A stretch of 64,000 nt of DNA from Streptomyces niveus (GTDB lineage: Bacteria; Actinomycetota; Actinomycetes; Streptomycetales; Streptomycetaceae). Every line of letters starts with the position of its first letter. Within the stretch, counting starts at the first letter, position 1. Under the pieces are notes generated by a model that saw only the letters and a list, made by a program, of their open reading frames with translations, was not told where the DNA came from and searched no databases. The translations under genes and the position numbers were made by a program. Where the stretch lies: contig NZ_CP018047.1 in NCBI RefSeq assembly GCF_002009175.1, positions 7,431,001 through 7,495,000 on the forward strand, given 5' to 3'. Of this stretch, positions 6,780-52,451 are shown in pieces.

Positions 6780-6795
6780 GTTCGTATATCGGAAC
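6780..6795. promoter_or_regulatory. GTTCGTATATACGAAC-type palindrome (site 1)
   Basis: GTTCGTATATCGGAAC has perfect outer half-sites GTTC/GAAC with an 8-bp spacer. It sits just upstream of the MBL-fold gene start (6751, minus) and matches the family of sites around the catabolic genes at 26-52 kb. Confidence 0.6.
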
Positions 6796-6870
6796 CGGGG
6801 GGCGTATCAACGGTCGTGGAACGGGTTGCTCCGTGGGAACGCACTCACCTCCGCACCATACTTCTGCGGC

Positions 6871-7279
6871 CTACTCGGTGGTTCCTTCGTACTCGTCGTC
6901 CGTCACGTGCTCACCCCACTCGACATCGGGCACCCCGGGGTAGCCCGCAGTCTCCGACATGGCGAGGTGGGCCATCGAAGTGGTCGGGTGCGGCGCCGTG
7001 CCAGTGCCACACGCCGGGAGGGGTGTGGACGGTGTAGCCAGGACGCATCACCATGACTTCGCCGTCGCGGGCCTGTACCAGGCCGACTCCCTCGGTGACG
7101 TGCAGGGTCTGCCCGACGGCGTGCCGATGCCAGGCGGTGCGGGCGCAGGGTGCGAAGCGCACCACCCCCACCCGCAGCCGTGAGGGCGCCACACCCTCCG
7201 CGATCATGTCCACCCAGACGTCCCCGGTGAACCGCTCCGCCGGGCCCTTGGACGAAGGCTTCTTCTCAAGGAATTCCAT
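6871..7279 (-). pseudogene. Cupin-domain protein, frameshifted near its C terminus
   Basis: The first ~100 codons encode a single-domain cupin with metal-ligand-like TAWHRHAVGQTLHVTEG and WHWHGAAPDHF. This is the carboxymuconolactone-decarboxylase-associated cupin type. After APDHF the frame runs into unrelated residues and stops at 6911. Removing one base near 6976 restores a family-like ending that starts MAHLAM, continues through VEWGEHVTDDEYEG and stops at 6871. Either the gene is a recent pseudogene or there is a sequencing error at this base. It follows the CMD gene by 15 bp, so the two form an operon. Confidence 0.75.
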
Positions 7280-7294
7280 GTCGCGTCGGCGCCC

Positions 7295-7618
7295 CTAGTC
7301 CGTTTCCTCGACGATGGCTTTCAGCTGTGTGAGAGCGCCCATTCCGCTGGGCCATCCGGCGTAGAAGGCCAGATGGGTGAGGGCTTCTACGAGTTCGTCT
7401 TTCGTGACACCGTTCTGCAAGGCCAGGCGCAGGTGGCTGTTGAGCTGCTCGGGCCGATAGGTGGCCGCGAGGGTGGAGACCGTGATCAGGCTGCGATCGC
7501 GCGGAGACAGGCCCTCCCGCTTCCACACATCGCCGAACAACACCTCATCGGTCAGCTCGACCATCTTCGGTGCGAGATCGCCGAGCAGTTGTTGAGCTCG
7601 TGAGGGTTCGTCTGCCAT
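7295..7618 (-). CDS. Carboxymuconolactone decarboxylase family protein
   Basis: A 107-residue protein with the CMD/AhpD-like helical pattern: LFGDVWKREGLSPRDRSLITVSTLAA, LNSHLRLALQNGVTKDELVEALTHLAFYAGWP, ending QLKAIVEE. I chose ATG at 7618 because homology begins there. There is no CxxC pair, so AhpD-type peroxidase activity is unlikely. The true reaction is unknown, since the family is broad. It is divergent from the XRE regulator at 7897 and shares the conserved element at 7692-7742 with it. Confidence 0.85.
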   Translation of the reverse strand: MADEPSRAQQLLGDLAPKMVELTDEVLFGDVWKREGLSPRDRSLITVSTLAATYRPEQLNSHLRLALQNGVTKDELVEALTHLAFYAGWPSGMGALTQLKAIVEETD

Positions 7619-7691
7619 GTGGGTACGGCCCTTCCGCGTGTGTGGGGTGATCTTCGGCGCAGATTCAGCGTGCCTCGCCAAGCTGACCTGT

Positions 7692-7742
7692 GGCAGACCG
7701 TGTCCTGCCGGGGAGCGATGTTCAGGGGAGTGACAGGGCACC
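7692..7742 (+). promoter_or_regulatory. Copy C of the long XRE/MmyB-associated conserved sequence
   Basis: GGCAGACCGTG, CTGCCGGGGAGC and TGTTCAGGGGAGTGACAGGG occur in the fixed order seen at 17115-17165 and 19139-19190. It lies 73 bp upstream of the CMD gene and also upstream of the divergent regulator at 7897. Best read as the control region and operator of this divergent pair. Confidence 0.65.
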
Positions 7743-7896
7743 CGACGGGTATGGCCGAACGTGACTGCTGATGGCAGGGTGTCGCGCGGAGCCGGCCGGC
7801 GATCTTCCGGACTCTTACGTCTCGACGCCGCCTGCCGTTGCGGTCGGGCATGCCCGCACCGGCCGGTTGCGGGCGGAGGCTGTCACACTGAGGGGT

Positions 7897-8793
7897 GTGG
7901 CACGTGAGCAGCAGGGGAGAAACAGCGGAACCGAACTCGGGCGCTTCCTGCGCGCCCGCCGCACGGAGGTCAGTCCTGAAGAGGCCGGTATCACCGTGGG
8001 CCCAGGACTGCGGCGTACCCCTGGCCTGCGGCGGGAGGAGCTGGCAACCCTCGCCGGGGTGAGCATCGACTACTACGCCCGCTTGGAACGCGGCCGAGAG
8101 GTCCACCCCAGCCCAGCCGTCCTCGACGCCCTGGCACGGGCGTTGCAGCTCGGTGAGATCGAGCACAAGCACCTGCACGACCTCTGTCTGCGTGCAGCTC
8201 GCGGGCAGTCCCCGGACCGGAGCACGCCCAGTCGCACGGTGGACCCCGGGACCGAGCTCCTGCTGGAGCGCCTGCGGCCCTTTCCGGCCCGCGTGCTCAG
8301 CCGCACCATGGACCTGCTGGCCTCCAATCCGGGAGGGTTGCGGACGTTGCCGGGGATCGAACGCTGGCCAGTCGAGCAGCGCAACATCGCGACATACGTC
8401 TTCCTCCACCCCATGGCTCGTGAGCTCTTCCCCGACTGGGAGGTGGTGACTCGTGGCTGCGTTGCCCGACTGCGTGCCTTGGCAGGTACCGACCCGGACG
8501 CGCCCGACCTTGCCGAGCTCGTTGAGGAACTGCTCTTCAAGAGCCCGGACTTCACCCGGCTGTGGGAGTTCTACGATGTGAGGGGATTCGCCCAGGGGCA
8601 CAAGACGATGCATCATCCTGAGGTCGGCGCTCTCACCCTCCGCTACCAGTCCTTGCTGATCGAAGGCACGCCAGGGCATCGCCTGGTGACGTACTACGCC
8701 CTGCCGGACACGCCGGATCACGACGCCCTGGTCCTCCTCGACCAGGCGGATCAAGACCGTGGCGCGAGCCCCACCGAGGAATACCAGGGCTGA
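7897..8793 (+). CDS. XRE-family regulator with MmyB-like ligand-binding domain (1)
   Basis: 298 residues. The N-terminal HTH covers about residues 5-85, with GLRRTPGLRREELATLAGVSIDYYARLERGRE as the recognition region (cited in part). The MmyB-like sensor domain (about 105-285) follows, with FLHPMARELFPDWE and HHPEVGALTLRYQSL. Such proteins repress or activate an adjacent oxidoreductase gene. GTG at 7897 follows a GAGGGGT ribosome-binding sequence, and in-frame starts further upstream lack family homology. It faces away from the CMD/cupin operon and is one of three full-length paralogues in the window. Confidence 0.9.
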   Translation: MAREQQGRNSGTELGRFLRARRTEVSPEEAGITVGPGLRRTPGLRREELATLAGVSIDYYARLERGREVHPSPAVLDALARALQLGEIEHKHLHDLCLRAARGQSPDRSTPSRTVDPGTELLLERLRPFPARVLSRTMDLLASNPGGLRTLPGIERWPVEQRNIATYVFLHPMARELFPDWEVVTRGCVARLRALAGTDPDAPDLAELVEELLFKSPDFTRLWEFYDVRGFAQGHKTMHHPEVGALTLRYQSLLIEGTPGHRLVTYYALPDTPDHDALVLLDQADQDRGASPTEEYQG

Positions 8794-17209: not shown

Positions 17210-18124
17210 ATGGCATCCGAGCAGAGCAGCAGCAGCGCCGAGATGGAACTGGCCCGGTTCCTGCGCGCACGTCGTACGCAGACCAGCCCCGACCAGGTCG
17301 GTCTCACCGTGGGCGCCGGTCTGCGCCGCACCCCCGGTCTGCGCAGGGAGGAACTGGCCACGCTCTCCGGCATCAGCATCGACTACTACGTCCGTCTGGA
17401 GCGCGGCAAGGAGACGCGTCCCAGTCCCGCCGTGCTCGACTCCCTCGCCCGAGCCCTGCAACTCGACGACGCCGAGCGCCAGCACCTGCGCGAGCTGGCC
17501 GCCCGTGCGGCCAGGTACGCTCCCGAGCCCTCTGCGCCGCCAAGCCGAACCGTGGGTCCGCACCTGGAGGTGCTCCTGGAAACGCTACGACCCAGCCCGG
17601 CCTACGTCATCAGCCGCAGCATGGACCTGCTCGCCTGGAACGCTGGTGGCCTCGCCCTGTACGCAGGTCTCGCAGACTGGCCCGCGACTCAGCGCAACCT
17701 CGCCCGCTACCTGTTCCTCCATCCCACCGCGCGCGCCCTCTTCCCCGACTGGGACTACCAGGTCCGCGGTTGTGTGGCCCGGCTCCGCGCCGTGGCAGGA
17801 ACCGACCCCGACGCACCGGATCTCACCGGCCTGGTGGGCGAGCTCCTACTGAAGAGCCCGGACTTCGTCAAGCTCTGGGAGCGCTACGACGTCGTCGGGC
17901 GCAAGAAGAGCCAGAAGACCTTCCACCACCCCCGGGTCGGGATCCTCACCCTCAGCGGCCAGAGCATGCAGCTCGAGGACACTCCTGGCCAACGCCTCGG
18001 CGTCTACACCGCCGAGTCTGATACCCCCGACCGCGACGCCATGCTCCTGCTCGACATGGCAGCGCCGCAGCCCGTCGCGCCTTCCGATACGGAGGCCGGA
18101 CAGCAACGACGCACGGAATCCTGA
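17210..18124 (+). CDS. XRE-family regulator with MmyB-like ligand-binding domain (2)
   Basis: 304 residues with an N-terminal HTH (ARFLRARRTQTSPDQVGL, then LRREELATLSGISIDYYVRL) and an MmyB-like sensor domain ending with HHPRVGILTLSGQSMQLEDTPG (cited in part). ATG 17210 follows GGCGAGGAG. It is probably the local repressor of the divergent DHA2 exporter and the aldo/keto reductase. It converges on its paralogue at 18179-19093, with a shared terminator between them. Confidence 0.9.
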   Translation: MASEQSSSSAEMELARFLRARRTQTSPDQVGLTVGAGLRRTPGLRREELATLSGISIDYYVRLERGKETRPSPAVLDSLARALQLDDAERQHLRELAARAARYAPEPSAPPSRTVGPHLEVLLETLRPSPAYVISRSMDLLAWNAGGLALYAGLADWPATQRNLARYLFLHPTARALFPDWDYQVRGCVARLRAVAGTDPDAPDLTGLVGELLLKSPDFVKLWERYDVVGRKKSQKTFHHPRVGILTLSGQSMQLEDTPGQRLGVYTAESDTPDRDAMLLLDMAAPQPVAPSDTEAGQQRRTES

Positions 18125-19093: not shown

Positions 19094-19138
19094 GCTTTCG
19101 AGTGTGCTGGTGCGGGTGACCTGCTCGGAAGGTGTGTG

Positions 19139-19190
19139 GGGGGCCCTGTCATACCCCTGAACACGGTTCCCCGGCAGAGCGCGGTCTGGC
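19139..19190 (-). promoter_or_regulatory. Copy F of the long XRE/MmyB-associated conserved sequence
   Basis: On the minus strand it has CCAGACCGCGC, CTGCCGGGGAACC and GTTCAGGGGTATGACAGGGC. It lies directly upstream of regulator 3. The 19191-19434 stretch beyond it holds no gene I can support. Confidence 0.65.
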
Positions 19191-19434
19191 ACATGACTCG
19201 TGCGCGAGGGAGCGTCGCCGGTGTGGGATCCCCGTTCTGACGGTCCTGTGCGCCGGGTGGCCGAGCCCCAGGAGCGCGATCGTACTGCCCGAGGACATGG
19301 TGGAGGACGAACCCGCAGCCGGGCTGCTGCCCTCCCGCGCCTCAGTGCCCACCCCGCCACGGAACCGAACGCGCTGCTTGGCGGTCAGCTCCGCGCCCCT
19401 TCGACCGACCTGGGGAAAGGGCGCAACACCATGC

Positions 19435-20396: not shown

Positions 20397-20416
20397 GCTC
20401 TGAATGGCGAACTGTG

Positions 20417-20432
20417 GTTCGTAAATAGGAAC
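20417..20432. promoter_or_regulatory. GTTCGTATATACGAAC-type palindrome (site 2)
   Basis: GTTCGTAAATAGGAAC has perfect GTTC/GAAC half-sites. It sits at about +13 relative to the predicted promoter of the MFS transporter at 20542. Confidence 0.58.
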
Positions 20433-35028: not shown

Positions 35029-35079
35029 CATGCGCGCCCTCGCTCCCGCCCATGCCAACGGACCCCACGGAGGCCCGCG

Positions 35080-36267: not shown

Positions 36268-36320
36268 GCGTCCGCCCCCGGCGGTCCGGACGCGATCACA
36301 GTGGACAAGGAGCACAGAAC

Positions 36321-37403: not shown

Positions 37404-37530
37404 GCAGGCCGGCGCGCGGACCCGTCCGATCGCCGAGCGCGCCCACGGGTGCGGCCCGACCGGTCTCGGCGACGCGACACAACCAGGCGCGATACCACTC
37501 GACGCGGCACCACCAGAGGAGTGACTGCAC

Positions 37531-38703: not shown

Positions 38704-38743
38704 GGCGTCCCCCGACCACTGACGACCACACTTGAGGACTGCG

Positions 38744-39919: not shown

Positions 39920-41529
39920 TGGGCGAACAGCATGGGGTGCCGGCCTCCGAGGTGTGGGGCAAGGAGATCGGGACCGAGGAGATCCGCGGCATCCCTTTCC
40001 GCACCTACACCGAGCGGCCCCACGACATCGCCGGTGTGCTCGCGTTCGCCGACCGCTGGGGCGACCGGCCCCACATCGTGCAGGGCGACACCGTGGTGAC
40101 CTTCGCCGGGCTGCGCCGCGCGGCCGACGCCAAGGCCGCCCTGCTGCGCGCGAGGGGACTCGGCCCGGGTGACCGGGTCCTGCTGCTGGGCTTCAACAGC
40201 CCGGAGTGGATCATCAACTTCTGGGCCTGCGTGAGCGCGAAGGCGGTTCCGGTCCTCGGCAACGCCTGGTGGGGGCCCGCCGAGCTCGCCGACAGCATCG
40301 CCCTCCTGAAGCCGAGCCTTGTGCTCGCCGACTCGCGCGGCGCGCGCTCGCTGCCCGACGACATCACCGTAGGCCCCTGGGCGTGCGAGATTCCTGACGG
40401 CGGTGGCACGAAGCCCGATCCGCGGCTTGCGGACGCGCACCACGAGGACGATCCCGCCGCGTTCGTCTTCACCTCAGGAACCTCGGGCAAGCCCAAGGCG
40501 GTCGTGCTTTCGCACAGGTCCCTGCTCGCCGGGCTGCACATGCTGCTGCACATCACCCGGCGGCTGCCCCAGCAGGTCGACGAGGCCACCGGGGACGCCG
40601 GCCTGCACACCGGGCCGATGTTCCACATCGGCGGGATCCAGACCCTCATCCGGGCGGTCACGGTCGGAGACACGCTGGTCATGCCGGCCGGCAAGTTCGA
40701 TCCGGCCGAAGCACTGCGGCTGATCGAGCAGTGGCGCGTCGTCCGGTGGAGCGCCGTGCCGACGATGGTCTCGCGGGTGCTGGAACACCCAGAGGTGCAC
40801 CGCAGGGACCTGACCTCCCTGCGCTCCCTCACGGTCGGCGGTGCTCCGGTGCACTCGGAGTTCCTGGCGCAACTGCGTGCCGGGCTACCTGGGATCGAGC
40901 CCCGGGTGGCGACCGGATACGGGCTGACCGAGAACGGCGGCCAGGCCACCGCGGCGTCCGGCAAGGACACCACCGAGCGGCCCGGCAGCAGTGGGCGCCC
41001 GCTGCCGTGCGTCGAGCTGAAGATCCTCGACCCGACCGAGCACCAGGACGGCGAGATCCTCATCCGGTGCCCCACACAGATGATCGGATACTTCGGTGTC
41101 GACGACTCAACCATCGACGACGAGGGCTGGCTGCACACCGGTGATCTCGGGCACCTGGACGAGGAGAACTACCTCTGGATCACCGGTCGGGCGAAGGACA
41201 TGATCATTCGCGGTGGCGAGAACATCGCCCCGGCCGCCGTGGAGGTAGCCCTGGCCGGCATCGGGGGTGTGGTCGAGTCCGCCGTCTTCGGCGTGCCGCA
41301 CCCTGACCTGGGGGAGGAGGTCATGGCCGTGGTCGTCGTCGAGAACGGCGTGACGGCCGACGACCTCGCCCGCGAGCTGCGTTCCCGTCTGGTCTCCTTC
41401 GCGGTGCCGACCCGGTGGCGGATCGAACGGGAGCCTCTCCGCACGACACATTCCGGCAAGATCGACAAGAAGGAGCTTGCCGCGGTGGCGCGCTCCGAGC
41501 TCGCCGCCACGACGGGGGACGCCGTATGA
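39919..41529 (+). CDS. Acyl-CoA synthetase (AMP-forming)
   Basis: 536 residues. The P-loop is FTSGTSGKPKAVVLSHR (about 184-200), motif A5 is GYGLTENGGQA, the hinge region is LHTGDLGHLDE and ITGRAKDMIIRGGENI, and the catalytic Lys near the C terminus is in THSGKIDKKEL. It activates a carboxylic acid to its CoA thioester with ATP. It is translationally coupled to the genes on both sides (TGATG and ATGA overlaps), so ligase, MaoC hydratase and crotonase act together. Confidence 0.93.
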   Translation: MGEQHGVPASEVWGKEIGTEEIRGIPFRTYTERPHDIAGVLAFADRWGDRPHIVQGDTVVTFAGLRRAADAKAALLRARGLGPGDRVLLLGFNSPEWIINFWACVSAKAVPVLGNAWWGPAELADSIALLKPSLVLADSRGARSLPDDITVGPWACEIPDGGGTKPDPRLADAHHEDDPAAFVFTSGTSGKPKAVVLSHRSLLAGLHMLLHITRRLPQQVDEATGDAGLHTGPMFHIGGIQTLIRAVTVGDTLVMPAGKFDPAEALRLIEQWRVVRWSAVPTMVSRVLEHPEVHRRDLTSLRSLTVGGAPVHSEFLAQLRAGLPGIEPRVATGYGLTENGGQATAASGKDTTERPGSSGRPLPCVELKILDPTEHQDGEILIRCPTQMIGYFGVDDSTIDDEGWLHTGDLGHLDEENYLWITGRAKDMIIRGGENIAPAAVEVALAGIGGVVESAVFGVPHPDLGEEVMAVVVVENGVTADDLARELRSRLVSFAVPTRWRIEREPLRTTHSGKIDKKELAAVARSELAATTGDAV

Positions 41530-42272
41530 GCGACATCGTCCGCGCGACGGTCGCCGACCGGGTCGCGCTGCTGGAGATGCGACGCCCTCCGAACAACTTC
41601 TTCGACGAGGCGCTGCTGACCGAGCTGGCCGACGCCCTGCTCGCGCTCGACGACGAGAAGGACGTCACCAGCGTGGTGCTGTGCTCGCAGGGGAAGCACT
41701 TCTGTGCCGGAGCCGACCTGCGGGGAATGGGAGAAGCGGGCATCCGCCGGGTCTACCGGCAGGCATTCCGGTTGTTCTCCGGTCGCAAACCGGTCGTCGC
41801 CGCGGTGCAGGGTGCCGCGATCGGAGGCGGCCTCGGTCTGGCGATGTCGGCGGACTTCCGCATCGCCGCTCCCGGAGCGCGGCTCACGGCGAACTTCGCA
41901 CGCCTCGGCTTCCATCAGGGCTTCGCGCTGTCGGTGACGCTGCCGAGGGCCGTCGGCCCGCAGCGCGCCCAGGAGCTGCTCTACACCGGCCGCTCGGTCG
42001 ATGGAGGGGAAGCGGCTGCGATGGGCCTGTGCGACGCGGTGGCGGACGACCCGCGCGAAGCCGCGATCGAGTTCGCGACCCGCATCGCGGCGGCGGCGCC
42101 GCTTTCGGTGCCGTTCATCAGGGCCACGCTGCGCCGCTCACTGGTCTCCGAGGTCTCCGCCGCTCTCGACTGCGAGGCGGCCGCGCAGGCCGCGCTCCTG
42201 GAAACCGCTGATTTCGCCGAGGGCGTCGCGGCGTCGATCGCGAAGCGCCCACCTCACTTCGTGGGGTCCTGA
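41526..42272 (+). CDS. Enoyl-CoA hydratase/isomerase (crotonase) family protein
   Basis: 248 residues. Oxyanion-hole segments are GKHFCAGADLRGMG (about 56-69) and GAAIGGGLGLAMSADFRIA (about 96-114). Where classical hydratases have two catalytic Glu (FxxPExxLGL and GGT regions), this protein has TANFARLGFHQGFALSVTLP. Both Glu appear to be missing. It may instead be an isomerase, thioesterase-like enzyme or C-C hydrolase. It overlaps the ligase gene by four bases and ends the operon started at 33616. Confidence 0.88.
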   Translation: MSDIVRATVADRVALLEMRRPPNNFFDEALLTELADALLALDDEKDVTSVVLCSQGKHFCAGADLRGMGEAGIRRVYRQAFRLFSGRKPVVAAVQGAAIGGGLGLAMSADFRIAAPGARLTANFARLGFHQGFALSVTLPRAVGPQRAQELLYTGRSVDGGEAAAMGLCDAVADDPREAAIEFATRIAAAAPLSVPFIRATLRRSLVSEVSAALDCEAAAQAALLETADFAEGVAASIAKRPPHFVGS

Positions 42273-42377
42273 TGACGAGTGTCGGGGCGCCAATCGGCTG
42301 AGGCAGCGCGCGAAAGAAGGTGACGTTAACACCGTCACGCACCGGTCATAGCGCCGCAGTCGTAATCCTGATCGATA

Positions 42378-42393
42378 GTTCTTATATCCGTAC
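42378..42393. promoter_or_regulatory. GTTCGTATATACGAAC-type palindrome (site 7)
   Basis: GTTCTTATATCCGTAC is a weaker match, 54 bp before the ALDH start at 42447, in the only sizeable gap (42273-42446) of the plus-strand run. Confidence 0.45.
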
Positions 42394-42433
42394 TCAATGC
42401 CCGTATCGGCGGGCCATCAATATCGATGATTCG

Positions 42434-43860
42434 AGGGGTGTGTCCGGTGAGTGAACGCGGCCAGATCTTCATCAATGGAAAGTGGGTGCCCTCTGCGGGC
42501 ACCGGTGTGATCGAGGTGATCAACCCGGTCACGGAGGAGCGTGTCGCGACGGTCCCGGCGGGGACCGCTGCGGATGTCGACCTCGCGGCCCGCGCTGCCG
42601 CCGAGGCGTTCCCCGCCTGGTCGCGGACGTCGGTCGACGAGCGTGCGGCATTGCTGCGCAAGCTGGCCCAGCTGACGGAGGCGCGGAGCGAGGAGATCAC
42701 CCGGGCTGTCGTGAGCGAGATCGGCCAGCCCTACTCGGTCGCCATCCGGTCCCAAGGCGCCTCCGCGGTCGAGGACCTGCGGAGTATCGCCGAGAGCCTG
42801 CCGGAGATCAGCTGGGAGGAGCAGGTCGGGCACACCGTTGTGGTCCGTGAGGCGGCCGGTGTGGTCGGTGCGATCACGCCGTGGAACGGGCCGATGCGCA
42901 TGATCTGTATGAAGGCGGGGGCGGCGATCGCCGCCGGCTGCACGGTCGTGCTCAAGGGCACGGAGGTGGCGCCGCTCAGTTCGTTCATCTTTGCCGAGAT
43001 CGCCGAAGAGGCCGGTCTGCCCGACGGGGTGTTCAACCTCGTCTCCGGCAGCGGTCCGGACGTCGGTGAGGCGCTGGTGACCCATCCGTTGGTCGACATG
43101 GTGTCGCTCACCGGCTCCGTACGTGCCGGACGTCGGGTGATGGAACTGGCCTCGCGGTCTGTCAAGAAGGTCGCCCTCGAACTCGGCGGCAAGTCGGCGA
43201 ACGTCATTCTGGAGGACGCCGACCTCACCCGGGCGATCGAGGTCGGTATCGAGGATGCCTTTCGCAACTCCGGCCAGGTGTGCGGCGGGCTCTCCCGCGT
43301 TCTTGTCCCGCGCTCCCGCCTCGCCGAGGCGGAGGAGATCGCCGTCCGCAAGGCAGAGAGTTATGTGCTCGGCGACCCGTACGATCCGGCCACCACGCTC
43401 GGTCCCGTCGCCAACGTTCACCAGCGGCAGCGCATCCGTGACTACATCCGTTCCGGCCTCGACGAGGGTGTGCGGCTGCTCACGGGCGGTCCCGAAGCGC
43501 CGGAGGGACTCGACCGGGGCTTCTTCGTGCGGCCCACCGTCTTCTCCGGTGACAACACCTCCAGGATTGCAAGGGAGGAGATCTTCGGACCCGTCGTCGT
43601 GATCATCCCCTTCGACAGCGAGGAGGAGGCCTTCGAGATCGCCAACGACACCCAGTACGGACTCGCCGGGGCGATCTGGGCTGGCGACGACGACCGTGCC
43701 CGAGCGCTCGCCCGCAACCTGCGTACCGGCCGGATCCGTATCAACGGCTCGGCGGTCAACCAGCGCGCCCCGCACGGCGGGTTCAAACTCTCCGGCATCG
43801 GCCGGGAGTTCGGGCGCTACGGCATCGAGGAATTCCTCGAGTACAAGTCCATCGGCTGAC
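42434..43860 (+). repeat. Direct repeat copy 1 (1,427 bp, whole ALDH gene)
   Basis: This segment recurs at 52530-53956 with an offset of exactly 10,096 bp. The translations of the two copies agree in the coding frame and in several other frames on both strands, so they are identical or nearly so at DNA level. It starts 13 bp before the GTG and ends one base after the stop, so only the gene itself is duplicated. Confidence 0.9.
42447..43859 (+). CDS. Aldehyde dehydrogenase (duplicate copy 1)
   Basis: 470 residues. Catalytic Asn in TPWNGPMRMICM, Glu in VALELGGKSANVIL, Cys in FRNSGQVCGGLSRV. The C terminus is RYGIEEFLEYKSIG. GTG 42447 has GAGGGG upstream. It is paralogous to the ALDH at 33616 and the same protein as the ALDH at 52543. 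This copy heads a run with MmgE/PrpD, acyl-CoA dehydrogenase and 3-hydroxyacyl-CoA dehydrogenase genes and has its own promoter palindrome. Confidence 0.93.
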   Translation: MSERGQIFINGKWVPSAGTGVIEVINPVTEERVATVPAGTAADVDLAARAAAEAFPAWSRTSVDERAALLRKLAQLTEARSEEITRAVVSEIGQPYSVAIRSQGASAVEDLRSIAESLPEISWEEQVGHTVVVREAAGVVGAITPWNGPMRMICMKAGAAIAAGCTVVLKGTEVAPLSSFIFAEIAEEAGLPDGVFNLVSGSGPDVGEALVTHPLVDMVSLTGSVRAGRRVMELASRSVKKVALELGGKSANVILEDADLTRAIEVGIEDAFRNSGQVCGGLSRVLVPRSRLAEAEEIAVRKAESYVLGDPYDPATTLGPVANVHQRQRIRDYIRSGLDEGVRLLTGGPEAPEGLDRGFFVRPTVFSGDNTSRIAREEIFGPVVVIIPFDSEEEAFEIANDTQYGLAGAIWAGDDDRARALARNLRTGRIRINGSAVNQRAPHGGFKLSGIGREFGRYGIEEFLEYKSIG

Positions 43861-43914
43861 AGACGTCCGCCGTCGGATCTCGGATCCGCCGGGCTGGAGA
43901 GGAAAGGGATTGAG

Positions 43915-45291
43915 ATGCAGGCGACGGAAAAGCCCGACCTGACCGGCACGCTCGCGGAGTATGCCGCGTTCACCAGTGTCGACGCGCTCCCCGGCAACAT
44001 TCGGGAGCGAGCGAAACTCATCATCCTCGACGAACTCGCGAGCTCCTACTTCGGCGCGAACTGCCCGGCCGGCCAGCTGGCAGCCCGTTACGTGGCCGGC
44101 CAGGGGGCCCATGGCGAGGTCCAGGTGCTGGGAACCGCACACCGTTCGTCGGCCGAGCTCGCCGCGCTGGCGAACGGCACGGCGGGACACGCCGACGAGA
44201 TCGACGGCGCGCACGTCGTCGGCGGTCACCCGGGTGCGACGCTCGTCCACGCCGCGACCGCCGTCGCCCAGCTGCGGCACTGCTCGGGGGGCGAGCTGGT
44301 CAACGCCGTGGTGCTGGGCTACGACGTCGGCACACGGCTGATCGACGCGTGTGGTGGCCTCTTCCGGTTGAAGGACGAGTTCCACCTGCACTCGGACTTT
44401 CTGCACGCCGTCGGCGCCGCTGTGGCCTGTGGCCGGCTGCTCGGACTCGAACCCCGTCAGATGGCGAACGCGATGGCCCTGGCCACGTTCCGGGCAAACG
44501 GGCTGTGCGCGCTGTTCCGAGAGGACAACCACATCAGCAAGGCGTTCTGCAACGGCCAGTACGCCTCGGCCGGAGTGGGTGCCGCGTTGATGGCCGAGGC
44601 TGGCATGGAAGGAGTCGCCGACGTCATCGGCGAGCGCCACGGGCTGCTCGACGCCTGGGGCGTGGAGGACGGGCGCGAGCGCGTTCTTCGCGGCCTGGGA
44701 ACCGACTTCGCGGTGACCGGTGCCAACTTCAAGTTCCTGCGCGCCGGTTACCCGATTCACGCCGCCGTCGAGGCCGCGACGCATCTGACGGCGGAGCACG
44801 AGATCACCCCGGAGATGATCGGCTCGATACGCGTCGGCATGCCGGGCAATGCGATGCGTGTGGTGGACGGACGGACCATGCACAACATCTGCCTCCAGGA
44901 CATGCTGGGCGTGGCCCTGACCCGTGGCGGGATCAGTCTGGCCGGATCCCCCTTCCCGGAGATCGAGTCGGATCCCGTGTTCCTGGCGCTGCGGAAGCAG
45001 ATCACCCTTCGGGTCGACCCCGACCTCGATCGCGACCAGCCGAACGGGCGAGGTGCGGTCGTCACCATCCGCCTGACAGACGGAAGGACCGTCACCCGGC
45101 GCGTGGACGCCCCGCGTGGCCACAGCCTTCGCGGGGCGCCGACCTGGCCGGAACTATCCGCGAAGTGGCGCGAAGCGCTGAGCGGTGTCGACACCGATGC
45201 CTGGATCAGCACCGCGGCGGCACTGGAGGACCTCGACGACGTCGTGACCTTCGCCGACCAGTTCGCGACCGGTGGCGACTCACACGCCTGA
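43915..45291 (+). CDS. MmgE/PrpD family protein
   Basis: 458 residues. The family pattern is visible: AKLIILDELASSYFGANCPAG, NGTAGHADEIDGAHVVGGHPGATLVHAATAVA (cited in part), GYDVGTRLI and FHLHSDFLHAVGAAVACGRLLGL (cited in part). The family includes 2-methylcitrate dehydratase and cis-aconitate decarboxylase, which act on substituted tricarboxylic acids. No prpBC partners are seen. GAAAGGGATTG precedes ATG 43915. The role is probably hydration/dehydration or decarboxylation of a polar branched acid. Confidence 0.88.
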   Translation: MQATEKPDLTGTLAEYAAFTSVDALPGNIRERAKLIILDELASSYFGANCPAGQLAARYVAGQGAHGEVQVLGTAHRSSAELAALANGTAGHADEIDGAHVVGGHPGATLVHAATAVAQLRHCSGGELVNAVVLGYDVGTRLIDACGGLFRLKDEFHLHSDFLHAVGAAVACGRLLGLEPRQMANAMALATFRANGLCALFREDNHISKAFCNGQYASAGVGAALMAEAGMEGVADVIGERHGLLDAWGVEDGRERVLRGLGTDFAVTGANFKFLRAGYPIHAAVEAATHLTAEHEITPEMIGSIRVGMPGNAMRVVDGRTMHNICLQDMLGVALTRGGISLAGSPFPEIESDPVFLALRKQITLRVDPDLDRDQPNGRGAVVTIRLTDGRTVTRRVDAPRGHSLRGAPTWPELSAKWREALSGVDTDAWISTAAALEDLDDVVTFADQFATGGDSHA

Positions 45292-45380
45292 GTCGTACGA
45301 CGCTCTCGTGTCCCGGCAAGAACCGGAGCTACGCCGCTTTGGTAGGTACTGAGTGCCACAAGTGTGGGAGTGGAATATTC

Positions 45381-46535
45381 GTGAGTGACTTCGACCTGTA
45401 CCGTCCGTCCGAAGAGCACGACATGCTCCGGGACGCGATCCGTTCCCTGGCCGAGGCGAAGATCGCACCGCATGCCGCGTTGGTGGACGAGGAGGCGCGC
45501 TTCCCCCGGGAGGCCCTGGACGCGCTGGTCGCGGCCGACCTGCACGCCGTACACGTACCGGAGTCGTACGGCGGTTCGGGCGCGGACGCCCTGGCCACGG
45601 TCATCGTGATCGAGGAGGTGGCGCGGGTCTGCGCCTCCTCGTCCCTGATCCCGGCGGTGAACAAGCTCGGCTCGCTGCCCGTCATCCTCTCGGGCTCCGA
45701 GGACCTGAAGAAGAAGTACATGATGCCGCTGGCCAAGGGCGACGGCATGTTCTCCTACTGCCTCTCCGAGCCGGACGCGGGCTCGGACGCGGTCGGCATG
45801 AAGACGAAGGCGGTCCGGGACGGCGACTTCTACGTCCTGAACGGTGTGAAGCGCTGGATCACCAACGCTGGCGAGTCGCAGTACTACACGGTGCTGGCTG
45901 TGACCGACCCCAGCAAGCGTTCGAAGGGCATCTCGGCGTTCGTCGTCGAGAAGTCGGACGAGGGTGTCTCCTTCGGCGCCCCGGAGCGCAAGCTGGGCAT
46001 CAAGGGCAGTCCGACCCGCGAGGTGTACCTCGACAACGTTCGCATCCCGGCCGACCGCATGATCGGCGCCGAGGGCACGGGCTTCGCCACCGCGATGAAG
46101 ACCCTGGACCACACCCGCGTCACGATCGCCGCGCAGGCGGTCGGTATCGCCCAGGGCGCCCTGGACTACGCCAAGGGCTACGTCCAGGAGCGCAAGCAGT
46201 TCGGCAAGCCGATCGCCGACTTCCAGGGCATCCAGTTCATGCTCGCCGACATGGCGATGAAGCTGGAGGCCGCCCGGCAGCTGACGTACTCGGCGGCGGC
46301 GAAGTCCGAGCGCGGCGACAGCGATCTGACCTTCTTCGGCGCGTCGGCCAAATGCTTCGCCTCCGACGCCGCCATGGAGATCACCACCGACGCCGTCCAG
46401 CTCCTGGGCGGCTACGGCTACACCCGCGACTACCCGGTCGAGCGCATGATGCGCGACGCCAAGATCACCCAGCTGTACGAAGGGACGAACCAAGTCCAGC
46501 GGATCGTCATGGCCCGCAACCTGCCCGGCGCATGA
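45381..46535 (+). CDS. Acyl-CoA dehydrogenase
   Basis: 384 residues, all three ACAD domains. The helical N-terminal domain starts SDFDLYRPSEEHDMLRDAIR. FAD-contact motifs are YCLSEPDAGSD and WITNAGESQYYTVLAV. The catalytic base Glu is in ITQLYEGTNQVQRIVMARNL. It strongly resembles the short-chain (butyryl/isobutyryl) type common in Streptomyces. It oxidises acyl-CoA to enoyl-CoA and passes electrons to ETF. GTG 45381 is preceded by GGGAG. It is followed at 11 bp by the 3-hydroxyacyl-CoA dehydrogenase. Confidence 0.94.
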   Translation: MSDFDLYRPSEEHDMLRDAIRSLAEAKIAPHAALVDEEARFPREALDALVAADLHAVHVPESYGGSGADALATVIVIEEVARVCASSSLIPAVNKLGSLPVILSGSEDLKKKYMMPLAKGDGMFSYCLSEPDAGSDAVGMKTKAVRDGDFYVLNGVKRWITNAGESQYYTVLAVTDPSKRSKGISAFVVEKSDEGVSFGAPERKLGIKGSPTREVYLDNVRIPADRMIGAEGTGFATAMKTLDHTRVTIAAQAVGIAQGALDYAKGYVQERKQFGKPIADFQGIQFMLADMAMKLEAARQLTYSAAAKSERGDSDLTFFGASAKCFASDAAMEITTDAVQLLGGYGYTRDYPVERMMRDAKITQLYEGTNQVQRIVMARNLPGA

Positions 46536-46546
46536 GGAGACCCACG

Positions 46547-47440
46547 ATGACAGGGAACACGAGTATGACCGACGTGCGCGCCGTGGGCGTGGTGGGCTGC
46601 GGACTGATGGGCGCCGGAATCGCCGAGCTCTGCGCCCGGAAAGGCCTCGACACCCTCGTCCATGAAGTCGACGCCCGGGCCGTCGAGGCCGGGCGCGACA
46701 GGATCGGGAGTTCCCTGGCCCGCGCGGTGGAACGGGGCAAGCTCGCCGCGGACGAGCGTGACGCGACGCTGAAGCGGGTGGCGTTCACCACCGACCTCGC
46801 GGACCTCGCCGACCGGGACCTGGCCATCGAGGCGGTGCCCGAGGACGAGGAGCTGAAACTGCGTGTCTTCGCCGTCCTCGACCGAACCATGGTCCGCCCC
46901 GACGCGCTGCTCGCGTCCAACACCTCGTCCATCCCCATCATGAAGCTCGCAGCCGCCACGAGCCGCCCCGGCCAGGTGGTGGGCCTGCACTTCTTCAATC
47001 CTGTGCCGGTCCTCGACCTGGTCGAGCTGGTGCCCTCGCTGGTGACCGCCGACGAGGCCTGGGAGCGGATCCACGCCTTCGCCGCCGAGACCCTGGGCCG
47101 GCATGTGATCGTCTCCCAGGACCGGGCCGGATTCGTCGTCAACTCCCTGCTCATCCCCTACATCGTCGCGGCGGTCCGGATGTTCGAGTCGGGCTTCGCG
47201 GCGGCACACGACATCGACGATGGCATGGTCCGCGGCTGCGCCCACCCCATGGGCCCGCTGCGGCTCGCCGACCACATCGGTCTCGACACCACACTCGCCG
47301 TCGCCGAGTCCCTCTACGCGGAATTCCGCGAACCCCACCTCGCGCCGCCGGCCCTGCTGCAGCGGATGGTCCAGGCAGGGCACCTGGGCCGCAAGACCGG
47401 TATCGGTTTCTACAGGTACCCTGCCGGCAAAGCCGCGTAG
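46547..47440 (+). CDS. 3-hydroxyacyl-CoA dehydrogenase (3-hydroxybutyryl-CoA type)
   Basis: 297 residues. The NAD-binding start is VGVVGCGLMGAGIAELCARKG (cited in part). The acidic cluster LAIEAVPEDEELKLRVF follows, SNTSSIPIMKLAAAT leads to the catalytic His in VGLHFFNPVPVLDLVELV, and the C-terminal domain has MVRGCAHPMGPLRLADHIGLD (cited in part). It oxidises 3-hydroxyacyl-CoA to 3-ketoacyl-CoA. GAGGAG precedes ATG 46547. It is the last gene of the run, followed by a strong terminator. Confidence 0.93.
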   Translation: MTGNTSMTDVRAVGVVGCGLMGAGIAELCARKGLDTLVHEVDARAVEAGRDRIGSSLARAVERGKLAADERDATLKRVAFTTDLADLADRDLAIEAVPEDEELKLRVFAVLDRTMVRPDALLASNTSSIPIMKLAAATSRPGQVVGLHFFNPVPVLDLVELVPSLVTADEAWERIHAFAAETLGRHVIVSQDRAGFVVNSLLIPYIVAAVRMFESGFAAAHDIDDGMVRGCAHPMGPLRLADHIGLDTTLAVAESLYAEFREPHLAPPALLQRMVQAGHLGRKTGIGFYRYPAGKAA

Positions 47441-48439: not shown

Positions 48440-49795
48440 TCAGGCCGTGGTTTGCGCGGTGTCCCGGTCGAGTTCGAGCTCTCGTGTCTCGCCGACGGTG
48501 AGCACACATGTCAGGCTGACGAGGCAGACGCCCGCCAGGATGCAGCCGAACGCGAAGCCTCCGAAGGAGTCGATCACGGAGGCGGCGATCAGGGGTGGCA
48601 CACCGCCGCCGAGCATGCCGGCCAGGCTGTAGCTGAGACCGGCCGCCGTGTAGCGGTAGCGGGTGTGGAAGAGCTCGGAGAGGAACGCTCCCTGTGGTCC
48701 GGTGGCCACCCCGGAGATGAACATCGTCACGGGGAGCCCGATCGCGAAGACCGTGCGGGAGCCGATGTCGAGGATGGGGAACAGGGCCAGTGCCCACACG
48801 ACAGCGACGGACGCCGCGCCCACGATGACCCAGCGTCGTCCGATGCGGTCGGAGAGGATCGCGCCGAGTACCACTCCGGCAGAGATCGATATACCGCCCA
48901 CCATGGCCATTCCCAGGACGAAGGTGCGGGGCAGTTCGAGTACCACCGTGCCGTAGCTGACCAGGTAGGTTCCGCCGATGTAGGTCAGGGCGAAACCGAC
49001 CATCACCGTGCCCGCGGCGAGCAGCACCTGCTTGGGCTGGTTGGTGAATGCCTCGACGAACGGCATCCGGGACGTACCCGCTTGCGCGGCCTGCTTCTTG
49101 AACACTGGGGTCTCGTCCATCCGCAGCCGGACCCAGAGTCCGAAGATGACGAGCAGGAAGCTGGAGAGGAACGGGATACGCCAGCCCCAGCTGGTGAACG
49201 TGCTGTCGCTCATGAAGACCGCGGTCAGGAAGAAAGTAGCGTTGGCGAGAATGATCGCCGCGCCGCCGCCGAGGTTGGCGAACGACGACCAGAACCCGCG
49301 TTTGCCCTGCGGGGCGTGCTCGGAGGAGAAGAGGACGGCGCCGGCGAACTCGCCGCCCGCGGCCAGGCCCTGGAGGACGCGCAGCATCACGATCATGATG
49401 GGTGCGGCAACGCCGATCTGGGTGGCGGTGGGCATACAGCCGACGAGGATGGTGGCCACGCCCATCAGCAACATGGTGGCGATCAGGGATTTCTTGCGTC
49501 CCAGGCGGTCGCCGAAGTGCCCGAACAGGATGCTGCCGAACGGACGCGCCACGAACGCCACGCCATATGTCGCGAAGGAAGCGACGGTGCCTTCGGCCTG
49601 TCCCAGGGCGGGGAAGAATATCTGAGGGAAGACGAGGGCGGCCGCCGTGCCGTAGATGCCGAAGTCGTAGAACTCGATCACGGTGCCGACGAAGCTGGCG
49701 GTCGCGACGCGCCTCATCCCTGGCTGAGGCGCCTCTTCGGTCGATGAGTCGGGTGTTCCGACGGGCGGAATCGTCTTTTCTGGTGAGTGCGTCAT
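48440..49795 (-). CDS. MHS-family metabolite:H+ symporter
   Basis: 451 residues, 12 helices. It begins RRVATASFVGTVIEFYDFGIYGTAAALVF (cited in part), the MHS hallmark. Motif A is SILFGHFGDRLGRKKSL, RVLQGLAAGGEFAGAVLFSSEHAP (cited in part) is the second hallmark, and GAILSDRIGRRWV is the repeated motif A. The family imports organic acids (shikimate, citrate, ketoglutarate, aromatic acids). GGGAG precedes ATG 49795. It is a good candidate for the proton-coupled uptake route of the island's substrate. Confidence 0.92.
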   Translation of the reverse strand: MTHSPEKTIPPVGTPDSSTEEAPQPGMRRVATASFVGTVIEFYDFGIYGTAAALVFPQIFFPALGQAEGTVASFATYGVAFVARPFGSILFGHFGDRLGRKKSLIATMLLMGVATILVGCMPTATQIGVAAPIMIVMLRVLQGLAAGGEFAGAVLFSSEHAPQGKRGFWSSFANLGGGAAIILANATFFLTAVFMSDSTFTSWGWRIPFLSSFLLVIFGLWVRLRMDETPVFKKQAAQAGTSRMPFVEAFTNQPKQVLLAAGTVMVGFALTYIGGTYLVSYGTVVLELPRTFVLGMAMVGGISISAGVVLGAILSDRIGRRWVIVGAASVAVVWALALFPILDIGSRTVFAIGLPVTMFISGVATGPQGAFLSELFHTRYRYTAAGLSYSLAGMLGGGVPPLIAASVIDSFGGFAFGCILAGVCLVSLTCVLTVGETRELELDRDTAQTTA

Positions 49796-49906
49796 TGCAT
49801 CTCCCTGTGGTCGATGCGGCTTGGCCGCGGCGTCAGAAGGGCCGATTGCCGGGCAGGGCCGGTCAGTCGACAAGGCGCGGTGTTACGCCGCGAAAGGCTT
49901 GGAGCG

Positions 49907-50443
49907 TCAGTGGAGAAGTCCGCGGGTACGCGGAATCGTCTTTGCGACGCGGAAGGCCTCACCGGAGAGCAGTCCGCGGTAGACGGCGTCCGGTGGAGGG
50001 TTTCCGCCGGATCGTCGACCGTGCGGCCGTTGGTGAGGGCGCCCTCGATGCCGTCCCGGGCCTGGATCCGCCCGAAGCGGACCTCTTGCGGCTGCGGCTG
50101 CGGGAGCGGCCGCAGGTGCGTGGGCGACTGCGAGTCGCGGTGACCCCAGCCGCGGGTCAGGGAGTCCTGCGCGTTCTCGTAGGCCGCTTCGACGCACTTC
50201 GTCGGTGCGTCGAGCTGTTTTGCCGACTCCGAAGCCGTCGCAGTCACCGCGGACGTGGTTCGCGACTACGTCCGCGACGGGTCCCACCTCGGAGACTGTT
50301 TCTGCCCAGGTCGCGCCTTGCTCCTGCAGAGGGCTCGCTTCATCCCGGCGGAGGTTGTGAACGACGAGATCGTAGCCCGCCCCGTGCGGATCGAGCGCCG
50401 TCCCGGCACCCACGACACCAGGCGCGATAAAGCCAGCCTTCAT
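49907..50443 (-). pseudogene. Fused relics of a HIBADH-like gene and a CMD gene
   Basis: From 50443, MKAGFIAPGVVGAGTALDP, YDLVVHNLRRDEASPLQEQGATW (cited in part) and VADVV reproduce the start of the HIBADH-like protein at 32389. After a large deletion and frame change comes KQLDAPTKCVEAAYENAQDSL with GWGHRDSQSP, its C-terminal part. Then EVRFGRIQARDGIEGALTNGRTV (cited in part) and, in a further frame, AVYRGLLSGEAFRVAK reproduce pieces of the CMD at 31969. Gene order equals that of the intact pair, so this is a decayed duplicate of the HIBADH-CMD module. Confidence 0.72.
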
Positions 50444-50516: not shown

Positions 50517-50532
50517 GTTCGTATATGGGCAC
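50517..50532. promoter_or_regulatory. GTTCGTATATACGAAC-type palindrome (site 8)
   Basis: GTTCGTATATGGGCAC has an intact left half and degenerate right half. It lies in front of the decayed HIBADH-like gene (50443, minus), in the position site 5 holds before the intact gene. Confidence 0.5.
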
Positions 50533-50681
50533 TCAAGAGCGTATGTGCGATCGACCGTAAGGTTCCACACCATGCGTGTCAACGCTCGCGCGGAAGGCTC
50601 TTTTTTCGTGGGTGCAACATGGGGCGGCTGAGGAGTGGCGTCGACGGGTGGCCCCGCGGGAGGCGGCCACCTGCTTCGCGA

Positions 50682-50697
50682 GTTCGTAACTATGAAT
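50682..50697. promoter_or_regulatory. GTTCGTATATACGAAC-type palindrome (site 9)
   Basis: GTTCGTAACTATGAAT lies 31 bp before the IclR regulator start (50728), suggesting autoregulation. Confidence 0.5.
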
Positions 50698-50727
50698 TCC
50701 TGATCGGGCTCCGCTACATTGGGCCCT

Positions 50728-51498
50728 GTGACGGACACGCCTTCAGCTCCCGACGACAGCGGCCCGAAGAACCATCGGACCGTCGACCGCGTGACCCGGA
50801 TCCTGGAGGAGGTTGTCTACCACCCAGGCATCGGCTTCGCCGAGATCGCTCGGGCGCTAGGGGCTCCGAAGAGCTCCGTGCACGGCTTCATTCGGGGCTT
50901 GCAGGCCCAGGGATGGCTGTACGAGGACAACCGCCGCTTCTATCTCGGCCCCGCCGTGTACGGTCTCACCCTGGCCAGCGGCCACATCCGTGCCGGACAG
51001 GTGACGCAGACGGATCTCGACGCGCTCCACAACGCGACCGGCCTGACCGTCTTCCTCGGGGTCGAGGCCGGCGACCACCTGATCTACATCGGCGAGTCGG
51101 GCACGGACGCTCTCACCGGGTTCGCGGCCCGCAGCAACATCCGGCGCACGCTCCTGACGACTGCGGGCGGCAAGGCCCTGCTGGTGGCGCGCCCGGACGT
51201 CGACCGGGATGCCTATCTGCGCCGGCAGCAGTCGGAGAACCCCGAGCTCGTCTCCGAGTTCCTCGCTGCGTTCGCCGACATCGCCAAGACTCGCGTGGCG
51301 ACGAACCTTCGCCATCGCGAGGCTCAGCTCGCGCTCGCCGCCGTCGTGCGCAATCAGGCCGGGAACAGTGTCGCCGCGGCCATCCTGATCGGCCAGACCG
51401 CCGAGATGAGGCCTCGCGAGGCCAAGCTGCGCAAAGTACTCCTCAAGCACGTCGACTCCTGGTCGCGCCAGGCCGTTTCAGCGAGGGAACCGATCTGA
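50728..51498 (+). CDS. IclR-family transcriptional regulator
   Basis: 256 residues. The N-terminal winged HTH has TVDRVTRILEEVVYHPGIGFAEIARALGAPKSSVHGFIRGL (cited in part). The IclR effector domain has VFLGVEAGDHLIYIGESGTDAL (cited in part), RRTLLTTAGGKALLVARPDVD (cited in part) and VAAAILIGQTAEM. GTG 50728 is chosen at the start of homology. It is the only dedicated regulator inside the catabolic island and is flanked by palindrome sites 8 and 9, so it is the best candidate for the factor that binds all ten sites (inference). Its 3' end overlaps the convergent hydrolase gene by 21 bp. Confidence 0.9.
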   Translation: MTDTPSAPDDSGPKNHRTVDRVTRILEEVVYHPGIGFAEIARALGAPKSSVHGFIRGLQAQGWLYEDNRRFYLGPAVYGLTLASGHIRAGQVTQTDLDALHNATGLTVFLGVEAGDHLIYIGESGTDALTGFAARSNIRRTLLTTAGGKALLVARPDVDRDAYLRRQQSENPELVSEFLAAFADIAKTRVATNLRHREAQLALAAVVRNQAGNSVAAAILIGQTAEMRPREAKLRKVLLKHVDSWSRQAVSAREPI

Positions 51499-52362
51499 CC
51501 ACCGACCGGCCGCGAGGTTCAGCAGATCGTGGACCTCGCGGGTGAAGACGTCGTTGTCGTCGCCCGCGACCATGTGGCCCGCGGGGACCTCGACCAGACG
51601 CGCGGTGGGGATGAGACCGAGCAGTTCGGTGGCGGCCTCGGCGGTCACCATGTCCGATTGCCGGCCGCGAACGAGCAGCGTGGGCGCCGTGATGTGACGG
51701 GCGGCCCGGATCATCCGCTCTGCGGAGGTGTTCGCCGGGTCGGCCGTGAAACTCAGGAAATCCGGATCCCAGTGCCAGTACCAGCGGCCGTCCTCGCCCA
51801 GCCGGACGTTCTTCTTCAGGCCGTCCAGTCCGGCCGTCCGCCTGCGGCGCGGATTGTAGGAGCGGACCGCCTCCGCGACCTCCTCCAGTGAGGAGAAGCC
51901 GTCCGGAGCGCCCCGCATGAAAGCCCGGACCCGGGCCTGTCCGGCCGGATCCAGCCGGGGTGCGATGTCCACGAGCACGAGCCCCGCAACGGTGCCCGGA
52001 TGCTCGCCCTCGGCGACCAGGGCGGTGCGTCCGCCCATCGAAGCGCCGATCACCACGGGTGGTTCGTCGAGCACTTCCACCGCTCGTAGAAGGTCTCCGA
52101 CCATGTCGTCCAGCGTGTAAGTGCCCGTCGGGGACCAAGCGCTGTCGCCGTGCCCCCGGGCGTCCAGGGTGATGGCGCTGAAGCCCTGTGCGGCCAGCCG
52201 CCGCGCCGTTCGTGCCCATGAGTGCCGCGTCTGCCCGCCGCCGTGCAGCAGCAACACCGTGCCCTGCGGGTCCTCGGGTTCCCAGCAGTCGGCAGCAAGG
52301 CCGATGCCGTGGACTCCTTCGAATGTGACCTGTTCGCGCGGGGCGCGGTCTGTCTCCGTCAC
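51478..52362 (-). CDS. Alpha/beta hydrolase (3-oxoadipate enol-lactonase/haloperoxidase-like)
   Basis: 294 residues. It has TVLLLHGGGQTRHSW, ITLDARGHGDS, the nucleophile in VVIGASMGGRTAL, PTLLVRGRQSDMV with the acid region and the His in VEVPAGHMVAGDDND. AAAGGAG precedes GTG 52362. It resembles hydrolases used in aromatic or cyclic-ketone breakdown rather than the two small esterase-like hydrolases of the window. Palindrome site 10 lies 74 bp upstream, between it and the second ALDH copy. Confidence 0.9.
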   Translation of the reverse strand: MTETDRAPREQVTFEGVHGIGLAADCWEPEDPQGTVLLLHGGGQTRHSWARTARRLAAQGFSAITLDARGHGDSAWSPTGTYTLDDMVGDLLRAVEVLDEPPVVIGASMGGRTALVAEGEHPGTVAGLVLVDIAPRLDPAGQARVRAFMRGAPDGFSSLEEVAEAVRSYNPRRRRTAGLDGLKKNVRLGEDGRWYWHWDPDFLSFTADPANTSAERMIRAARHITAPTLLVRGRQSDMVTAEAATELLGLIPTARLVEVPAGHMVAGDDNDVFTREVHDLLNLAAGRWSDRFPR

Positions 52363-52435
52363 AGCCTCTCCTTTGAACCGTTGACACTGTCGGCGGCCGA
52401 GCGTAGCTTGCAGGCAGTCGAAATTGCGACATTGA

Positions 52436-52451
52436 ATTCGCATATACGAAT
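52436..52451. promoter_or_regulatory. GTTCGTATATACGAAC-type palindrome (site 10)
   Basis: ATTCGCATATACGAAT is nearly perfectly symmetrical, between the divergent hydrolase (52362, minus) and ALDH (52543, plus) genes. Confidence 0.6.

Follow-up and report, generated by a model that had tools for sequence, protein, structure and literature searches.

A 64,000-nucleotide stretch of the Streptomyces niveus genome (contig NZ_CP018047.1, positions 7,431,001 to 7,495,000 of the forward strand; called the window below, with coordinates counted from its first letter) carries ten 16-bp palindromic sites in and around a group of catabolic genes. We are confident that these sites serve as operators for an IclR-family protein, the product of 50728-51498, which would control an accessory catabolic island by repression. 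Nine of the ten sites are double, with a weaker copy of the palindrome exactly 20 bp upstream on the strand of the controlled gene. This pairing is a stronger signal than the single palindromes and was overlooked in the earlier note on this DNA, which had proposed a single local regulon and named the IclR protein as candidate binder. That proposal gains support from the clustering of the sites, from their group-1 IclR motif and spacing, from the operators at orthologous iclR genes and from the co-occurrence of operators and regulator. The regulator very probably forms, together with its targets, a self-contained local IclR regulon of the repressive type.

All ten sites named in the earlier note are present at their positions (see Table 1). 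Eight lie within three mismatches of GTTCGTATATACGAAC, whereas shuffled versions of the 64-kb window contained 0.02 such sites on average and none of 100 shuffles gave eight; the sites at 33526 and 50682 were recovered by a looser pattern only. The GTTC-N8-GAAC symmetry ascribed to the whole set holds strictly for three sites (6780, 20417, 33526), but one mismatch to it is found in four (33383, 42378, 50517, 50682) and two or more in the other three (26011, 26247, 52436). KTYCRY-W4-RYGRAM describes the common form of the ten sites better. LexA-type boxes could be ruled out, because LexA boxes have the arm order GAAC...GTTC and not GTTC...GAAC as found here.

A motif search over the complete genome of 7,990,492 bases revealed 19 matches to GTTCGTATATACGAAC with up to three mismatches. 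Eight of these are located in the window, which represents 0.8% of the genome, so the motif is clustered and not randomly scattered. The reversed pattern, used as a control, had no match in the genome. The remaining 11 matches outside the window are weak as tandem operators, the best of them scoring 8.6 vs 24.6-34.6 for the window pairs. Separately, a single GGTCATATTGATGAAC at 2685-2700, at the start of a flavodoxin-like gene, has a 16-bp matrix score of 19.4 and a pair score of 8.0 and is probably not a member of the regulon.

For the analysis of the pairing each site was oriented to its downstream gene and offsets from -60 to +60 were scored against KTYCRYWWWWRYGRAM. The ten window sites reach a mean of 11.5 out of 16 at -20, and the other offsets (excluding 0) a mean of 6.57 with a standard deviation of 0.99. 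Eight sites from orthologous loci in other genomes show 11.6 at -20 and a mean of 6.71 (standard deviation 0.98) elsewhere. A partner at -20 is thus present at nine out of ten window sites and at seven out of eight orthologous-locus sites. The unpaired exception is identical in both sets: it is the site before iclR (50682 in the window, 9941 in locus L047), which scores 6 at this offset.

With a 36-bp matrix made from seven pairs of other species the lowest window pair scored 18.4, and the best place in 400 kb sampled from the own genome 14.8. For a matrix from 16 pairs outside the window the corresponding values are 24.6-34.6 for the nine window pairs and a maximum of 7.6 in 400 kb of sampled own genome; since the outside primary sites had been found by their likeness to the consensus of the earlier note, only the secondary half of these pairs is free of that selection. 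A pair pattern, tuned on window and other sites, has six matches in the genome, all of them inside the window, and misses three of the nine window pairs. Likewise, the five matches (E up to 10) of a sequence model from the seven outside pairs all fall into the window, although each is weak alone (E 0.8-3.4) and four of the nine pairs are missed. When no mismatch was allowed, a degenerate pattern matched at a single, unrelated position. The loose skeleton TCGN6CGA-N8-TCGN6CGA was useless genome-wide (774 matches with up to two mismatches vs 364 for the control), and the longest stop-free stretch over the sites was left unused because at this GC content it does not separate the window sites from others.

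The promoter sequence TTGACA-N17-TANNNT occurs without mismatch five times in the 64 kb, with 0.02 expected, and all five copies lie directly upstream of pairs, their ends being 21-26 bp away from the strong palindrome. When the best promoter of each pair is taken, the -10 box precedes the strong palindrome by 20-26 bp in eight of the nine window pairs, including the weak promoter at 42378. Under uniform scoring 20 of 25 pairs have a promoter of at least 8/12 that lies 20-27 bp away, i.e. seven of nine in the window, seven of nine in the congeneric genome G484 and six of seven at the named orthologous loci; for comparison, this score was reached by 0.22% of 20,000 positions drawn at random and by 1.4% of 5,000 positions of low GC content. 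If transcription is assumed to start 7 nt past the -10 box, the start falls inside the weak palindrome, with the strong palindrome following at about +15 to +36. A consensus promoter scan of 33300-33650 reported nothing at its own cut-off, though TTGACA-N17-TANNNT is present there twice.

In their survey of 181 IclR orthologous groups, Suvorova and Gelfand (2021, PMC8222616) give GKTYCRYW3-4RYGRAMC as the form of group-1 sites. For 94 orthologous groups they describe paired sites whose centres are 18-22 nt apart, a spacing that they explain by tetramers whose dimers face one side of the DNA. The window sites agree with the group-1 form, scoring 13-15 of 16 against KTYCRYWWWWRYGRAM, as do those at the orthologous loci with 14-16, and the 20 bp at nine window sites fall into the tandem range. 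Like group-1 sites, the window sites are even-length KTYCRY-W4-RYGRAM palindromes with 20 bp between centres; unlike the even subgroup iv (CRA-W4-TYG) as given there, they have the inner pair CGT-W4-ACG. Because of this fit in motif, length and spacing the system represents a new example of an already known gene control, as far as the open papers searched show.

Three further known systems come close. NpdR of Rhodococcus opacus HL PM-1 (motif GTTCMRYATMRTGAWS) also uses a 16-bp even palindrome with a GTTC arm and an AT centre, but it is listed for trinitrophenol utilization (PMC8222616), and no gene of that pathway was recognised in the window. PcaU, PcaR and PobR have similar boxes of the GTTCG...CGAAC type, and PcaU needs an additional box; theirs, however, is an extra half-site (three boxes), whereas here two full palindromes lie 20 bp apart (PMC8222616). 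BlcR (AttJ) of Agrobacterium is described as the tetrameric repressor of blcABC, a lactone catabolism operon whose products include a metallo-lactonase (PMC5924552, PMC6402643). The window system may share this mode of a tetrameric repressor of lactone catabolism, but it differs in the low similarity of the proteins and in having nine tandem operators and acyl-CoA enzymes. Searches of the open-licence literature did not find the exact 16-mer and, judged by titles and abstract openings, listed nothing on this regulator or island.

The regulator itself clearly belongs to the IclR family, as HTH_IclR (PF09339, 37 bits, cut-off 22) and IclR_C (PF01614, 34.6 bits, cut-off 24) are both recognised in a scan that used the start at 50719. 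It does not fall into the named subfamilies compared: the PcaR/PcaU/PobR model TIGR02431 gave 42.6 bits vs a cut-off of 284.75, and the BhcR model NF045644 51.1 bits vs 350. The best single-sequence match in the PDB is BlcR (3mq0), which is weak at 30.1 bits, and in a PDB profile search the top rank goes to a different IclR protein (1mkm, 38.3 bits vs 30.8 for BlcR). The helix-turn-helix (HTH) stretch KSSVHGF is invariant in eight of eight aligned sequences, the own protein and seven relatives, among them proteins of Acidovorax and Azohydromonas. The closest named homologue, with 96% identity, is from Streptomyces phaeochromogenes, where a second homologue shows 78%. A plasmid search with the IclR protein returned 14 records with 46.3% identity at best, i.e. 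no close plasmid carrier in the collection searched.

At iclR the end of the -10 hexamer TACATT is 39 bp away from the start of the single site, and this geometry is identical at four iclR genes (window, L047 and both copies in G484). In L046 a sequence resembling the iclR site can be read by eye at the end of the upstream gene. The IclR gene had been described as flanked by two sites, which does not hold, as 50517 and 50682 are both on its upstream side, within a divergent region.

Operators of the same form adjoin orthologous iclR genes in four other genomes. Relatives of the IclR protein are encoded in Amycolatopsis saalfeldensis (75%), Actinoplanes lutulentus (70%) and a metagenome-assembled genome (MAG) labelled Betaproteobacteria (62%), and these loci hold three, four and one sites with up to four mismatches, respectively (L046, L047 and L048, in the order of these numbers). 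The sites in L046 precede HIBADH, CoA-transferase and aldehyde dehydrogenase genes, those in L047 an alpha/beta-hydrolase, the ABC importer (with the same three genes as in the window), HIBADH and iclR, and the one in L048 a MmgE/PrpD gene. In the window, CoA-transferase and MmgE/PrpD sit behind site-bearing aldehyde dehydrogenase genes. A Rhodococcus locus (L049) with 29% identity over residues 12-152 and one site with four mismatches was excluded as no orthologue. IclR homologues of Acidovorax and Azohydromonas are 63-66% identical; together with the Betaproteobacteria MAG they suggest that the IclR clade crosses phyla.

The fourth genome, G484, harbours two iclR copies (87% and 85%; C1:7887080-7887841 and 7913827-7914594, loci L074-L075), which lie 27 kb apart inside that genome's version of the island. 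In 80 kb examined there we found nine pairs and two single iclR sites, after a row at 61209 had been dropped as the secondary half of 61229. One pair precedes an MFS (major facilitator superfamily) gene followed by a metallo-beta-lactamase (MBL) fold hydrolase, and three times sites stand directly before genes for importers of the metabolite:H+ symporter (MHS) type. The operator before HIBADH at 33383 has counterparts in L046, L047 and G484.

The IclR protein was detected (E up to 1e-50) in two of 392 sampled congeneric genomes, and only in the own genome among 150 of the family (E up to 1e-30) and 396 of the phylum; in these surveys scoring usually covered a part of each genome's first-look candidates. 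A tandem pattern allowing two mismatches, built from 25 pairs including those of the window and of G484, occurs in three of the 392 congeneric genomes, with six copies each in the own genome and G484 and a single one in G298. More than one operator is therefore present only in the two genomes with IclR. As IclR and tandem operators are found in so few genomes, the catabolic island is regarded as accessory; it is rare and probably transferred.

The sites with their pairing, spacing, position relative to promoters, conservation and co-occurrence with IclR can be read from the sequences; binding by this IclR protein, its tetramer state, repression and release by an inducer are inferred. At the nine transcription units an IclR tetramer (two dimers) would occupy two palindromes 20 bp, or two helical turns, apart, in eight units just behind the promoter with the weaker palindrome over the assumed start. 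The bound pair would block RNA polymerase until a compound of the pathway is sensed and the repressor releases. At iclR one dimer on the single palindrome overlapping the -35 position would lead to a weaker negative autoregulation. Several observations fit less well. The secondary palindrome is weak, and the pair at 6780 has no promoter at the usual distance (score 4), although a possible TTGATA-N16-TATACG overlaps the operator itself. The promoter at 42378 is weak (TTAACA-N17-TAGCGC, 7/12), and one at the usual distance is also missing for two of nine G484 pairs and one L047 pair. In L048 no autoregulatory site could be seen by eye in the 150 bp before iclR, and G298 has its one operator-like match without a reported IclR match.

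Activation, too, is known for some IclR proteins and would be compatible with the sequence; among the members from the beta-ketoadipate pathway PcaU, PcaR and PobR can activate. The IclR protein could therefore bind these operators but activate transcription together with a pathway compound, and a weak match to the PcaR/PcaU model, below its cut-off, points in this direction. We consider this quite unlikely, because most pairs lie downstream of the -10 box over the predicted start and not upstream of -35, and five promoters carry a perfect TTGACA. It is less likely still that another regulator binds the sites, e.g. an IclR paralogue or an MLTR-type regulator. MLTR-type genes do occur in or beside the island, which counts against our reading, and for the IclR query 28 first-look candidates came up in the own genome, 17 of them being scored. 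However, the motif is of the IclR group-1 type and adjoins orthologous iclR genes in four other genomes, and the tandem pattern occurs just once in total among those 390 congeneric genomes (of 392) in which no IclR match was detected. It is hardly credible that the sites have no regulatory role and arose by chance or through duplication of upstream DNA: two aldehyde dehydrogenase genes are indeed identical over 1427 bp, but this match starts at about the gene starts, beyond the operators, a self-comparison (E up to 1e-20) listed no repeat containing operators, and the shuffles as well as spacing, promoter position and conservation speak against both.

Seen in this way, ten similar sites become a predicted regulon for which a regulator can be named and a 36-bp operator, promoters and a testable geometry can be predicted. 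The contrast of paired operators at the targets with a single one at the regulator's own gene, which recurs in other genomes, makes this a clean system in which to ask what IclR proteins gain from tandem sites. Membership in the regulon shows which genes of a rare, probably transferred island share one pathway, and takes in two genes outside the island core, an MBL hydrolase and an MFS exporter.

Table 1. Predicted operators and the genes behind them. Matrix, pair score with the 36-bp matrix from 16 outside pairs; exact promoter, TTGACA-N17-TANNNT without mismatch; operon extents of 33598-42272 and 42426-47440 are taken from gene order. HIBADH, 3-hydroxyisobutyrate dehydrogenase; ADH, alcohol dehydrogenase; AHL, N-acyl homoserine lactone.
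Feature	Positions	Strand	Basis
MBL-fold hydrolase, nearest AHL/pyridoxo-lactonases	6002-6751	-	PF00753 (scanned as 6002-6844); best PDB matches N-acyl homoserine lactonases
Tandem operator, primary 6780-6795, secondary 6800-6815	6780-6815	-	pairing; matrix 24.6
Tandem operator, secondary 20397-20412, primary 20417-20432	20397-20432	+	matrix 26.4; TTGACA-N18-TATGGT ends 20 bp before primary
MFS exporter	20542-21783	+	MFS_3 (scanned from 20437); H+ antiporter subfamily match under cut-off
ABC importer: solute-binding protein 24641-25774, ATPase 23764-24633, permease	22847-25774	-	NMT1_2, ABC_tran, BPD_transp_1
Tandem operator for ABC importer, primary 26011-26026, secondary 26031-26046	26011-26046	-	matrix 27.5; exact promoter 26053-26081 (-)
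Tandem operator, secondary 26227-26242, primary 26247-26262	26227-26262	+	matrix 32.4; promoter TTGACC-N17-TACCGT
Zinc ADH 1	26453-27493	+	ADH_N, ADH_zinc_N
HIBADH-type dehydrogenase (in 32389-33390), CMD-family protein 31969-32355, histidine phosphatase 31122-32024	31122-33390	-	
Tandem operator for HIBADH and CMD genes, primary 33383-33398, secondary 33403-33418	33383-33418	-	matrix 28.6; exact promoter 33421-33449 (-)
Tandem operator, secondary 33506-33521, primary 33526-33541	33506-33541	+	matrix 29.0; exact promoter 33474-33502 (+)
Aldehyde dehydrogenase 1, CaiB-type CoA-transferase, zinc ADH, Fe-ADH, MaoC-type hydratase, acyl-CoA ligase, enoyl-CoA hydratase	33598-42272	+	Pfam
Tandem operator, secondary 42358-42373, primary 42378-42393	42358-42393	+	matrix 31.5; weak promoter
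Aldehyde dehydrogenase 2, MmgE/PrpD protein, acyl-CoA dehydrogenase, 3-hydroxyacyl-CoA dehydrogenase	42426-47440	+	Pfam
MFS metabolite:H+ symporter (MHS type)	48440-49873	-	Sugar_tr/MFS_1; TIGR00883 390.8 bits, under cut-off 443.45
Tandem operator, primary 50517-50532, secondary 50537-50552	50517-50552	-	matrix 33.9; exact promoter 50554-50582 (-)
Single iclR operator, right arm overlapping -35 position	50682-50697	+	no -20 partner (score 6)
iclR, IclR-family regulator, 256 amino acids, proposed binder	50728-51498	+	Pfam domains, invariant HTH core
Tandem operator, secondary 52416-52431, primary 52436-52451	52416-52451	+	matrix 34.6; exact promoter 52381-52409 (+)
Aldehyde dehydrogenase 3, zinc ADH 2	52522-55022	+	Pfam

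The MBL hydrolase (start 6751) had been linked to the same control, and G484, where an MBL gene 62% identical to it stands behind such a site, supports this link. The parallel link of the MFS exporter (20542) is of a different strength, its support being the sequence of its own site and the promoter. Control of the hydrolase gene at 51478-52380 by the site at 52436 was not confirmed, as the promoter and the tandem polarity there face the aldehyde dehydrogenase. The HIBADH frame as listed extends into its operator, so the true start of HIBADH is probably located further in. Downstream of 50517 a HIBADH remnant comes first, followed by the MHS-type importer and an alpha/beta-hydrolase; the remnant (50110-50443, minus strand) shows 47-48% identity in two pieces. 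The two zinc ADHs directly behind sites are of one type, and a further zinc ADH is part of the aldehyde dehydrogenase 1 operon.

Among the NCBIfam matches listed for 20 proteins (up to 25 per protein in one scan, E up to 1e-20 in another) no equivalog scores above its cut-off, and the sole match above a curated cut-off is to a 3-hydroxybutyryl-CoA dehydrogenase subfamily model. The MBL protein reaches 93.1 bits with the AiiA-type AHL lactonase model NF045699 vs a cut-off of 375; an AiiA-like gene in the regulon, though under the family cut-off, hints at a lactone inducer, which is a lead and not a result. One may speculate further, and we regard this as unlikely, that an IclR clade with an invariant HTH core, common to actinobacteria and beta-proteobacteria, travels with the catabolic island and reads operators of two grades: at catabolic and transport operons tandem sites that cover the start, at iclR single sites over -35. 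It would then sense a lactone or its hydroxy-acid or semialdehyde product, and the regulon would correspond, in actinobacteria, to lactone catabolism of the BlcR type and might act on lactone signals.

An IS110-type transposase gene (28523-29884) lies within the island. The two identical aldehyde dehydrogenase genes (42434-43860 and 52530-53956, 100% over 1427 bp) have different upstream operators, which suggests that a duplication or gene conversion took place very recently. Around the island there are related genes, or fragments of genes, for XRE/MLTR-type regulators at 7690-8775, 17249-18094, 18182-19360 and 55735-56277; in comparison to the one at 18182-19360 the others show 59%, 64% and 38% identity, respectively. 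A TPR-domain AAA/HTH gene (56574-59042) contains internal repeats at 56674-57564 which are 75-87% identical.

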